DNA from: Candidatus Latescibacterota bacterium
GTDB taxonomy: Bacteria; JAAXHH01
Direction: 5' to 3'
Assembly (NCBI GenBank): GCA_022823465.1
Contig: JAJEHX010000008.1
Span: forward strand, 1-64,000
Length of the DNA: 64,000 nt
Of this stretch, positions 540 to 50,088 are shown piece after piece; position 1 is the stretch's first letter, and every line of letters starts with the position of its first letter. The position numbers were made by a program, and so were the translations under genes. The notes below the pieces were generated by a model. It was not told where the DNA came from. It was given only the letters and a program-made list of their open reading frames with translations, and ran no database searches.

Positions 540-1550
540 ATGTCTATACCCGCCGCCCAGGCTCAGCCGGAACCCTTTGAACCGGACCCTCACCTGGCCA
601 TTACCGAAGCGCAACGGCGACAGTTCGACGAAGACGGATTCTTTCTGATAGAAAACGCCCTCAAGCCGAAGCGCGTCGAGCGGCTGCTTGGCGTCGTCGA
701 CAAGCTCTACGACAAATACCACAAGGCCCATGGCACTTCGCCCGACGCGCCATACCAGATTCGCAACGCCCTGGCGCACCACAAAGAGCTTTTCAGATTG
801 GTCGATTACCGGAAGATCCTGCGGCTGGTCGTGGACGTCATGGGGGTAAACATCCAGATCCGCACTTCCCACGTGGATGTACGGCCGCCCATGAGAGATC
901 ACGCGGTAGGAGAACTTGGGGCCAGCGGCAGCTTCTTCCCCTGGCACTCCGACGCACCCAATTACGGTTATCCCATCACCAACGGCGCCATCCCCTTCTT
1001 AGAGGTGAAGGTCGGGTACTACCTGACCGACCTCACCGAGCTCAACAGCGGGGCCATCTGCGTGGTGCGCGGCAGCCATCGACTTTCGCCCGAACTGATC
1101 CACGATCCGGACTACCGAATCGAACCGGAGGACATCGTGGAGGTAAACGTAAAGCCCGGCACCGCCATGGTCTGGCGGACGGCCCTGTGGCACTGCCTGA
1201 CGCCCAACCTGTCCGACCGCACGCGCAAGTGTCTTTACTACGGGTACAACTACCGGTGGGCGCGCCCGGGGGATTACGACCGACAGGACGCCAGATTGCT
1301 GGCGCGATGCAAGCCCATTCAGCGCCAGTTGCTGGGCTCCAACACGCCAGAGGACGGGGTGGCCTTGCAGGACGGCGATCCGGCCCATCCGGCTTCCAGG
1401 TACTGGCGCCCCGAACCCGGTGACGTGCCCCTGGATGCGTGGGCCGAGAAGCAACGACGAAAAAAGATACAGAAGGAATGGAAGCGATGGAAACGCAGGA
1501 ATACCCTGCCCCCATACGCCGTGGGCGCGCCGGCGGAGCCGACATCATGA
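540..1550 (+). CDS. PhyH-family Fe(II)/2-oxoglutarate dioxygenase
   Basis: A 336-residue protein of the phytanoyl-CoA dioxygenase family, which hydroxylates diverse small molecules using Fe(II), O2 and 2-oxoglutarate. The canonical iron motif is visible as His-Ser-Asp at residues 136-138, with the distal His at 218 (Ala-Leu-Trp-His) and a following Arg (Ser-Asp-Arg-Thr-Arg) that should bind 2-oxoglutarate. The start is supported by AAGGAG at 527-532. The C-terminal ~60 residues are basic and rich in Lys/Arg. Its stop overlaps the start of the next PhyH gene (ATGA), so the two are probably translationally coupled. The substrate is unknown. Confidence 0.9.
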   Translation: MSIPAAQAQPEPFEPDPHLAITEAQRRQFDEDGFFLIENALKPKRVERLLGVVDKLYDKYHKAHGTSPDAPYQIRNALAHHKELFRLVDYRKILRLVVDVMGVNIQIRTSHVDVRPPMRDHAVGELGASGSFFPWHSDAPNYGYPITNGAIPFLEVKVGYYLTDLTELNSGAICVVRGSHRLSPELIHDPDYRIEPEDIVEVNVKPGTAMVWRTALWHCLTPNLSDRTRKCLYYGYNYRWARPGDYDRQDARLLARCKPIQRQLLGSNTPEDGVALQDGDPAHPASRYWRPEPGDVPLDAWAEKQRRKKIQKEWKRWKRRNTLPPYAVGAPAEPTS

Positions 1551-2278
1551 CCGAAGCGGAAATCTTCGAATTCGACCTCAACGGCGTCATCATCTACCGG
1601 AACATGCTGTCCCCGGACCAGGTCGATTACATGAACGGGGTCCTCGACGAACACCTCACGGATGAATCCTACAATTTCCCTTTCCTGGACCTGGACCCGG
1701 TGTTCATGGAGGTCATGGCCCTGCCCCGGACGCTGAACATCCTCAAGACGATGATCGGTGGATGGATGCGCCTGGACCATGCCTACGGGCTGCAGATGGA
1801 CACGCTCACCGTGGAGCGGGGCGATATCCGGCCCAATCTCCACGGCGGGCCGCTGGAGGACAACGGCGAGCACCATTACCAGTGGTTCAACGGAAGGATG
1901 TACAACGGGCTGACGGTGGTCATGTACGCGCTCACGGATGTCAACCCCGGCGACGGCGGATTCATCTGCGTCCCTGGAAGCCACAAGACCAACATGGAAT
2001 TCAAGCCGCCGCCGGATTCCCACCTCGTCGTGAATCCCACCCTCAAGGCCGGCGACATGCTCATCTTCACCGAGGCGCTTGTACACGGTTCGGACACCTG
2101 GTCCTCGTCGAACAAGCGGCGCTCCCTGCTCTACAAGTATTCGCCCGGTCATTCCACCTGGGCGATTCCGGAGAACTGGGAAAAACTGCAGGACCTGGCC
2201 GCCAACGACTTGCAGCGCGACCTGCTCAGGGCGCCCAGCATCGAAGGCCGGACGCCGGTAGAGATACCGGAAGCGTAG
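1547..2278 (+). CDS. PhyH-family protein with HGG in place of HxD (tandem copy 1)
   Basis: A 243-residue PhyH-family protein. The frame is open upstream to 1439, but the ATG at 1547, overlapping the previous stop, gives the same N-terminus (MTEAEIFEFDLNG) as its paralog at 2289, so that start was chosen. Residues 99-101 read His-Gly-Gly where canonical members have His-x-Asp. The distal His is at 180 (Leu-Val-His-Gly) and Arg residues at 191-192 are kept, and the 81-residue spacing matches the 82 residues in the gene at 540. Loss of the carboxylate ligand is the arrangement known from non-haem iron halogenases (HxA or HxG), but a halogenase role here is only a hypothesis. It forms a tandem duplicate with the next gene. 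Confidence 0.88.
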   Translation: MTEAEIFEFDLNGVIIYRNMLSPDQVDYMNGVLDEHLTDESYNFPFLDLDPVFMEVMALPRTLNILKTMIGGWMRLDHAYGLQMDTLTVERGDIRPNLHGGPLEDNGEHHYQWFNGRMYNGLTVVMYALTDVNPGDGGFICVPGSHKTNMEFKPPPDSHLVVNPTLKAGDMLIFTEALVHGSDTWSSSNKRRSLLYKYSPGHSTWAIPENWEKLQDLAANDLQRDLLRAPSIEGRTPVEIPEA

Positions 2279-2288
2279 AGAGGATACC

Positions 2289-3020
2289 ATGACCGAAGCC
2301 GAGATCTTCGAATTCGACCTCAACGGATACATAATCTATAAGGACATGTTGACCCGGGACCAGGTCGATCACATGAACGGGATCCTGGACGGACACTTGT
2401 CCGAGGATGCCCACGGCTTCGATTTCCTCACGCTCGATCCGGTGTTCATGGAACTCATGGCCCATCCCCGGACGCTTCGGATCATCCGCACGATGATCGG
2501 GGAATGGCTGCGGCTGGACCACGCCTACGGGCTGCAGATGGACCGGCAATCGGTCGAGCGAGGCCATGTGCGGCCGAACCTGCATGGCGGCCTCCGGCAC
2601 GACCACGGCGAGCATCAGTACGAGTGGTTCGACGGGAACATGTACAACGGACTGATCGTGGTCATGTACGCCCTCAAGGACATCAACCCCGGCGACGGCG
2701 GGCTCATCTGCGTTCCCGGCAGCCACAAGTCGAACTTCCGTTTCCGTCCGCCCGTGGATTCCCACCTGGTCGCGAACCCCTCCTTCATGGCGGGCGACAT
2801 GCTCATATTCACCGAAGCGCTGGTCCACGGCACCACCACGTGGACGTCCGATCAGCAGCGGCGCGCCTTGCTGTACAAGTATTCGCCCGGTTATTCCGCC
2901 TGGGCCTCCGCCGAAAGGCTGGACGAGGCACGCGACATGGCCGCCAACGATCTCCAGCGCGACCTGTTGCGTCCCCCAAGTGTGGGCAAGCGGACTCCTT
3001 TGGAAATCCCCGATGGGTGA
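2289..3020 (+). CDS. PhyH-family protein with HGG in place of HxD (tandem copy 2)
   Basis: A 243-residue paralog of the preceding gene, alignable without gaps and starting 10 bp after its stop; a GAGAGGA ribosome-binding site lies at 2277-2283. It has the same His-Gly-Gly in place of His-x-Asp, the conserved Pro-Gly-Ser-His loop, the distal His in Ala-Leu-Val-His-Gly, and the Gln-Gln-Arg-Arg segment expected to hold 2-oxoglutarate. Retention of the unusual motif in both copies after clear divergence suggests it is functional rather than decayed. It is probably cotranscribed with the two PhyH genes before it. The substrate is unknown. Confidence 0.88.
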   Translation: MTEAEIFEFDLNGYIIYKDMLTRDQVDHMNGILDGHLSEDAHGFDFLTLDPVFMELMAHPRTLRIIRTMIGEWLRLDHAYGLQMDRQSVERGHVRPNLHGGLRHDHGEHQYEWFDGNMYNGLIVVMYALKDINPGDGGLICVPGSHKSNFRFRPPVDSHLVANPSFMAGDMLIFTEALVHGTTTWTSDQQRRALLYKYSPGYSAWASAERLDEARDMAANDLQRDLLRPPSVGKRTPLEIPDG

Positions 3021-3118: not shown

Positions 3119-3162
3119 CCCGGCGTAGCATGTGAAGAAGCCCGGCGTAGCATGAGAGGAGA
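3119..3162 (+). repeat. 22-bp direct repeat reaching into the creatininase leader
   Basis: Two adjacent copies share CCCGGCGTAGCATG at 3119-3132 and 3141-3154. The second copy runs into the GAGAGGAGA that serves as ribosome-binding site of the next gene. A related GAGAGGAGA...ACCTGG segment also lies about 75 bp upstream, so the leader looks built by local duplication. Confidence 0.7.
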
Positions 3163-3169
3163 CCTGGTA

Positions 3170-3985
3170 ATGAACGTGCGGGATGAGTACCGCTACAATC
3201 GCCTGACCTGGGAAGATATGAACGAGGCCATCGCCATGCAGAAGGTGGTGGTCCTGCCCACGGGCTCCACCGAGCAGCACGGCAAACACCTGCCCCTCGA
3301 CACGGACGCCTTTCTCGTCGAATCCGTCTGCCACGAACTGGGGCGCCGCATCCCCGACCGCGTCCTCGTCCTTCCCACGGTCAGCTACGGCCTGAACCTG
3401 CACCATATCGATTTCCCGGGCACGATCCACATCGAGCCCGAGGTATTCATCGCATTCTGCCTGAACATCACCAAGAGCGTGGCTTACCATGGATTCGAGA
3501 AGATACTGCTGGTGAACGGCCACGGTTCCAACGCCCCGCTGATTGACCTGGTGGCCCGGAAGACGGTATTAGCCACGGAGTCGCTCTGTTTCGCCGCCAA
3601 CTACTTCACCTTCCTGGTAGACGCCTTCAACGAGGTCAGGGAGTCGGAGGTGCTGGCCCACGCCGACGAACTGGAGACGTCCCTCTACCTGCACCTTGCC
3701 GGCGAACGCGTAAAGATGGACAAGGCCGCGCCGGACATGGACCGGGTAGGGAAGTACTGCTCGTCGGACAGCACGGGTACCGTGCGCTTTAACGACTTCT
3801 GGGGCCGGTGGACGGGGCTGGGGGTCCACGGCGATCCGACGCCGGCCACGGCCGAAAAGGGCGAGATTATCTTCAACGCGTCCGTGGATGGCCTGGTCGA
3901 ACTGATCGACGATATCCGGGATTGGCCGATCGAGGAGCGAAGCGATCAGCACGCGGGACCGGTGCAGCGCGGGATCAGGTGGTAG
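3170..3985 (+). CDS. Creatininase-family amidohydrolase
   Basis: About 271 residues. The family signatures are clear: Leu-Pro-Thr-Gly-Ser-Thr-Glu-Gln-His-Gly near the N-terminus, Asp-Thr-Asp, and Leu-Val-Asn-Gly-His-Gly-Ser-Asn, which supply the metal ligands of this hydrolase fold. Members cleave C-N bonds in creatinine, in formamidopyrimidines of flavin/F420 biosynthesis (ArfB type), or in peptides (MftE in mycofactocin), so the substrate cannot be assigned by family alone. I chose ATG 3170 over the in-frame ATG at 3152 because a GAGAGGAGA site lies about 8 bp before it. It follows the PhyH cluster on the same strand. A second family member lies at 41873. Confidence 0.88.
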   Translation: MNVRDEYRYNRLTWEDMNEAIAMQKVVVLPTGSTEQHGKHLPLDTDAFLVESVCHELGRRIPDRVLVLPTVSYGLNLHHIDFPGTIHIEPEVFIAFCLNITKSVAYHGFEKILLVNGHGSNAPLIDLVARKTVLATESLCFAANYFTFLVDAFNEVRESEVLAHADELETSLYLHLAGERVKMDKAAPDMDRVGKYCSSDSTGTVRFNDFWGRWTGLGVHGDPTPATAEKGEIIFNASVDGLVELIDDIRDWPIEERSDQHAGPVQRGIRW

Positions 3986-49176: not shown

Positions 49177-50088
49177 ATGTCGACCACAACCGAACCGGCC
49201 GCCGTGCCCGCCGCCGCATCCGCGCCCGAGTCCACATCCACCCCCGCCCAACCCGTTCCCATGACCGAAGAGCAGAAGTTCTTCTTCGATCTGAAGGGCT
49301 GGATCCTCGTGCCCTCCGTGCTGACGGAGACCGAGATCGAGGAGATGAAGGCCGAAGTTTACGCTGCGGTGAAACCGGACTACAAGGGCAAGAACAGCGA
49401 CATCAGACAGGGTTACCAGGGGAAGCTGGCCGACCTGCTCGATCATCCGGCCGTGGTGGGCATCCTGAACGAAATCCTTACCGAACCGCCTTTCGTGGCG
49501 GACGATTACTACGGCTTCCGCTGTGAAAACTCCTTCCTCATGGTGCGCGAACCCGGTTGGAAGTCGACCGTGCAGGGAACGGGGCTGCCCCACGTCGTCC
49601 GTCCGCCCCAGCAGGCCAACGCCATGCGCTACCAGGTGCAGGGCGGCAAGATATTCGCGGGACTCACCCGCGTAGTCTGGGAACTGGAAGAAGTTAAAGC
49701 CGGATTCGGCGGCACGTCCTTCCTGAGCGGTTCGCACAAGGCCCATTTCAACTATGGCGGTCCGGACAGGTACCGTCCCAACATCAGCGAATCCCCATGG
49801 GAGGAGAGCCTTTACGGCGCCCTGGAGGACTACAGCTGTCCGCCGGGATCGATGCTGGTCTTCACCGAAAGCCTCATCCACGCGGCGAACGACTGGACCA
49901 ACCCGGACAACCCGCGCTGCGCGGTCTTCAACTGCTACAACTCGATCTGGGCGCAGTGGCACCGGCTCAACCTCGGTCACGAAATCATCGAGAAGATGCC
50001 GCCGAAACGGCAGTCCCTCTTCCGGGGCGCGTGGCAACTGGGCGGCGAAGGAAACCGTACGTACGCGCTGGACAACCGGTCGGTGTAG
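49177..50088 (+). CDS. PhyH-family protein with altered iron motif (HVV)
   Basis: A 303-residue PhyH-family protein. Where HxD is expected it reads Leu-Pro-His-Val-Val, so the acidic ligand is missing. The Gly-Ser-His loop follows at the normal distance, as does the distal His in Ser-Leu-Ile-His-Ala-Ala. Other features match the two HGG-type proteins at 1547 and 2289, including Phe-Thr-Glu-Ser/Ala-Leu before the distal His. Residues 1-28 are an Ala/Pro/Thr-rich leader. ATG 49177 is preceded by GGAGAAAAAC. It is probably read with the enolase-superfamily gene 111 bp downstream. Confidence 0.87.
   Translation: MSTTTEPAAVPAAASAPESTSTPAQPVPMTEEQKFFFDLKGWILVPSVLTETEIEEMKAEVYAAVKPDYKGKNSDIRQGYQGKLADLLDHPAVVGILNEILTEPPFVADDYYGFRCENSFLMVREPGWKSTVQGTGLPHVVRPPQQANAMRYQVQGGKIFAGLTRVVWELEEVKAGFGGTSFLSGSHKAHFNYGGPDRYRPNISESPWEESLYGALEDYSCPPGSMLVFTESLIHAANDWTNPDNPRCAVFNCYNSIWAQWHRLNLGHEIIEKMPPKRQSLFRGAWQLGGEGNRTYALDNRSV

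Follow-up and report, generated by a model that had tools for sequence, protein, structure and literature searches.

Tandem HygX-like PhyH proteins of a Latescibacterota bacterium carry HGG at the iron site and a conserved glutamate that may replace the missing carboxylate

Two tandem PhyH proteins of a Candidatus Latescibacterota bacterium are probably active Fe(II)/2-oxoglutarate (2OG) oxygenases of the HygX clade, in which Glu176 would substitute for the lost HxD carboxylate; they would serve sugar or polyol oxygenation and not halogenation. They are encoded in the window analyzed here, the first 64,000 nucleotides of contig JAJEHX010000008.1; all window coordinates below refer to the + strand. 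HGG paralog 1 (P0001, a HygX-like PhyH protein of 243 aa, 1547-2278) starts with an ATG that overlaps the stop codon of the upstream PhyH gene (ATGA), and HGG paralog 2 (P0002, 243 aa, 2289-3020) shares 70% identity with it. Both exceed the curated score cut-off of the PF05721 PhyH HMM, with 50.8 and 45.1 bits versus 22. Genome-wide, PF05721 has 113 matches in 3.86 Mb, a very large PhyH expansion in this Latescibacterota genome; a PhyH expansion of comparable scale was reported for Poribacteria (PMC3909097).

As the earlier note on this DNA had read, the acidic iron ligand is replaced by glycine in both proteins. Instead of HxD they carry H99-G100-G101 (P0001, 1841-1849) and H99-G-G101 (P0002, 2583-2591), with Gly101 rather than Asp or Glu at position +2 of the first iron His. 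The same note had described the remaining residues as kept, and they are: in each paralog H99 is followed after 81 residues by the distal His, H180 (2084-2086 and 2826-2828), and then by the 2OG Arg, R191 (2117-2119 and 2859-2861), while the canonical PhyH neighbor at 540-1550 has a spacing of 82 and retains its Asp (H136-S-D138 ... H218). Four residues before the distal His (position -4) lies E176 (2072-2074 in P0001, 2814-2816 in P0002), an acid conserved across the clade and the proposed replacement carboxylate.

H99, H180 and R191 are invariant in an alignment of 75 divergent relatives, and dN/dS of the HGG proteins against their orthologues is 0.07-0.17, i.e., selection is strongly purifying. 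Because of this invariance and selection, the HGG genes are considered functional and the glycine is not an error; chance, a frameshift or a sequencing error behind the motif is ruled out by the orthologues and the selection. A non-catalytic role was among those the earlier note had allowed; the paralogs would then be inactive or scaffold proteins whose activity was lost together with the carboxylate. The absence of the HxD acid is compatible with it, as is the arrangement of a tandem duplicate adjoining an active-looking HxD paralog, but the three invariant residues, the low dN/dS and the crystallization of HygX, which has the same motif, with metal and 2OG make such a role highly improbable.

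The genomic context points to sugar metabolism. The canonical PhyH gene (540-1550; HSD...H, with Thr at -4) belongs to the same operon as the HGG pair. It is preceded by the 3' part of an enolase-superfamily sugar-acid dehydratase gene (41-460; the contig starts at base 1), whose full orthologue in a relative (L188:6041-7297) is galactonate-dehydratase-like. The conserved downstream gene (3152-3985) encodes a creatininase-family amidohydrolase; for this family search the 97%-identical orthologue L188:9994-10806 served as the query. In relatives with longer contigs the gene order is PhyH, galactonate-dehydratase-like enolase, HxD PhyH, HGG1, HGG2 and creatininase-family hydrolase, with divergent upstream genes encoding a Gfo/Idh/MocA oxidoreductase as well as an FAD oxidase. 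In several more distant genera, the HxD PhyH gene adjoins a single HGG gene. Overall, the operon looks like one for carbohydrate or polyol breakdown.

The close relatives of this genome are classified as Latescibacterota or Gemmatimonadetes, and many of them are sponge-associated. A close match was found in 16 of the 16 genomes of a phylum sample, in which most genomes of the same genus also possess the tandem pair. HGG is retained in all Latescibacterota orthologues collected, orthologues in a few planctomycetes and cyanobacteria read HAG or HGG, and matches at E below 1e-40 were detected in 79 of the 85 genomes searched around a poribacterium. The HGG family is conserved and frequently tandem-duplicated, and its clade is large and mostly uncharacterized; the motif itself is old and widespread, occurring in Latescibacterota, Poribacteria and some planctomycetes and cyanobacteria.

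To our knowledge, HygX is the only characterized member of this PhyH clade. By sequence and by predicted model, this hygromycin B oxidative cyclase is the nearest solved protein to both paralogs. It ranked first in a single-sequence search of the PDB (E 1e-6) and in a profile search (E 1.7e-27), in which the next family was DhiD (4.6e-14). An AF2 model was built from our own alignment of relatives (mean pLDDT 94), and in Foldseek its 16 best PDB matches were all HygX chains, with E down to 1.8e-17; they include 4ZPI (Fe), 4XCA (Ni/2OG) and 4XCB (Ni/2OG/hygromycin). The iron site of HygX reads LHGG, hence HGG as in P0001 and P0002, and the paralogs carry the complete HygX-type combination of HGG with Glu four residues ahead of the distal His. 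McCulloch 2015 is said to mention, in its abstract, variation in metal coordination in HygX, and a literature search for a description of the HygX ligands found none among open papers. The enzyme is tied to oxidative cyclization in hygromycin B biosynthesis by the titles of McCulloch 2015 and Li 2018, as cited in PMC8748661, and by a summary in PMC8234114. The suggestion in the earlier note that the paralogs resemble halogenases thus finds no support, as the best match in both sequence and fold is an oxidative cyclase that is itself HGG.

To relate the loss of the +2 acid to position -4, essentially all PhyH domains of this genome (114) were gathered stretch by stretch and their motif positions were read. 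An acid occupies -4 in all 15 domains that have no +2 carboxylate (14 Glu, 1 Asp), versus 3 of the approximately 97 HxD domains, all with Asp. A second repertoire comprised 143 PhyH domains of one poribacterium, five of them ambiguous; here the acid at -4 was found in 23 of the 26 domains without a +2 acid versus 7 of the 112 with one. The exchange between +2 and -4 gives Fisher p = 5e-16 and 5e-17, values that do not represent independent evidence since the co-occurrence lies mostly in one clade. For the same reason a tree-corrected sign test on independent pairs has no power, with two to three concordant and almost no discordant cases among five pairs. E176 is, from the alignment, a candidate for another Asp/Glu completing the iron triad. 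D77-H78 were also considered as replacement metal residues and set aside; they are kept in most of the clade, are L and E in HygX and vary elsewhere, and seem less likely than E176.

Both repertoires contain further departures from the common pattern. Three poribacterial proteins have no acid at either position; one of these (L323, from 7218 onward, in the poribacterium G644) combines HGG with Pro at -4 (FLPNTRHAG) and by motif would be a better halogenase-like candidate than P0001 or P0002. Four clade members carry acids at both +2 and -4, two with HHE (L144, L127) and two with HAD (L133, L325), and are possible intermediates. In a PhyH paralog ORF of the window overlapping 49285-49908 (+), the first of the two iron His is either absent or displaced (TVQGTGLPHVV), and the Glu at -4, distal His and Arg are retained; the poribacterial protein L362 is likewise without the first iron His.

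A tree was then built without the motif columns; HctB itself is absent from it. The analysis revealed that 53 of the 55 rows with Glu at -4 fall in one clade of 58 rows (support 97/94), so the motif does mark a clade, a question raised by the earlier note. HygX lies on a long branch within this clade. Nested inside it with strong support are two paralogs from the same genome (L254, L258) that have HRD and Thr at -4; they are sister to an own-genome paralog with HNG and Glu at -4 (100/98), a reciprocal swap back to HRD.

The HGG paralogs could also be two-His hydroxylases resembling AspH, with water in the carboxylate site and E176 serving only in substrate binding or structure. AspH is itself an HxG hydroxylase, and FIH with Asp changed to Gly kept some activity (PMC10947486). 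However, a plain two-His site leaves unexplained why E176 is near-invariant beside a drifting +2 position, and why the two residues swapped back together, and we regard it as rather unlikely.

Halogenation deserves closer consideration, as the vacant Asp site could in principle bind chloride (or azide or nitrite) and the substrate radical take the chlorine. Both His are present, and Gly101 is the small Ala/Gly-type +2 residue of halogenases, as in HxG enzymes. Position 197 is K/R in 70 of 80 clade members and aligns with an Arg of CytC3 and of two cyanobacterial proteins (L272, L273); in the halogenase HctB, Arg245 was proposed to tune Fe-Cl (PMC6218459). The glutamate at -4 bears on the question in both directions. 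It is described as unusual in HctB, with other halogenases typically having Ser or Lys there (PMC6218459), and Glu176 of P0001 and P0002 departs from this typical state. Position -4 is Ser in the HQA chlorinases CytC3 and SyrB2 and Ala in L272, a cyanobacterial TIGR01762 protein that reads HQV; a literature search for Ser231 of SyrB2 gave nothing. At the same time, Glu223 of HctB (four residues before His227) came within 6 A of the iron-oxo-chloro unit in QM/MM work, and one of the models placed it along the Fe-Cl axis (PMC6218459), facing the position usually occupied by Asp. An initial assumption that Glu at -4 bars halogenation was abandoned, HctB being a true halogenase with this residue (PMC6218459).

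Several other observations make halogenation by P0001 and P0002 unlikely. HygX and the canonical hydroxylases score closer to both proteins than CytC3 and SyrB2 do, the latter two ranking below canonical hydroxylases in the PDB profile search; with 18.3 and 13.6 bits, P0001 and P0002 stay far under the TIGR01762 chlorinating-enzyme cut-off of 226.3. CytC3, L272 and L273 form a branch separate from the clade of P0001 and P0002. The +2 position in the wider clade is also S, N, Y, H, Q or T, and the bulky ones among these (Y, H, Q, T, N) are a poor fit to a conserved halide pocket. The operon showed no carrier-protein gene, and removing the carboxylate from P4H produced no halogenase (PMC2767507). 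Oxygenase activity is preferred over halogenation because of kinship, branch, family score and operon, and not because of E176 alone. A broader version, in which the paralogs and their many poribacterial relatives act on sugars as free-standing chlorinases or similar anion-rebound enzymes, with HctB-like Glu176/Lys197 steering rebound, appears very unlikely; if true, sponge symbionts would be an extensive and hitherto hidden source of aliphatic halogenases. L273 (HQA with Glu at -4) groups with CytC3, away from the P0001/P0002 clade, and is an independent, halogenase-like case of Glu at -4; it adjoins PKS/FAAL-like genes and is possibly an HctB-type halogenase.

Returning to the oxygenase model, we hypothesize that H99 and H180 bind the iron and R191 the 2OG, as the invariance of these residues suggests, and that the HxD carboxylate would have been lost early in the clade. 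E176 would then take over its role as a direct ligand, forming a relocated facial triad; alternatively, it could act as a second-shell group that holds water in the vacant site. The placement of Glu223 in the QM/MM models of HctB lends this geometry indirect support. The reaction is probably an oxygenation, for example hydroxylation, O-demethylation or oxidative cyclization, and the context suggests that the substrate is a sugar or polyol arising as an intermediate of the operon, which also encodes the sugar-acid dehydratase, the canonical PhyH protein and the creatininase-family hydrolase.

Proteins without the HxD acid are often interpreted as halogenases or dead paralogs; the large clade described here keeps everything else, and an acid elsewhere goes with the loss in nearly every case. 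Should E176 be a relocated ligand, a second signature ([TNS]-E-x3-H) would be needed for annotating 2OG oxygenases by motif, and HygX would no longer be an isolated oddity. If it is a second-shell residue, the clade offers natural variants for probing hydroxylation versus halogenation. L254 and L258 provide natural test cases for the reciprocal swap.

Among known systems, HygX (PDB 4XC9, 4XCA, 4XCB, 4ZPI) shares with P0001 and P0002 the PhyH fold, HGG, NEALMHG with its Glu at -4, and the 2OG Arg. Identity is only about 22%, however, and HygX does not have the R-L-D-H strand motif, W185 or K197; it is also the product of a Streptomyces antibiotic-pathway gene, whereas the paralogs are encoded in an operon resembling those for sugar-acid catabolism. 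The SyrB2/CytC3 chlorinases (TIGR01762) likewise combine a PhyH-type fold and both His with the absence of a +2 carboxylate; unlike the paralogs, they have HQA, Ser at -4 and carrier-protein substrates, and CytC3 lies on a separate branch. HctB resembles P0001 and P0002 in having no +2 carboxylate (Val113 at this position) and Glu at -4 (Glu223; PMC6218459), but it is a multidomain protein with an acyl-carrier substrate. The human Asp/Asn beta-hydroxylase AspH has a comparable HxG...H iron site with two His only (PMC10947486), yet it is not a PhyH protein by name and its substrates are EGF-like domains. Finally, PHYHD1/FJS and the canonical PhyH/EctD hydroxylases share the family (PF05721), the 2OG Arg and the distal His with the paralogs, whereas the HxD PhyH proteins in the sets examined here retain the carboxylate and hardly ever carry Glu at -4.
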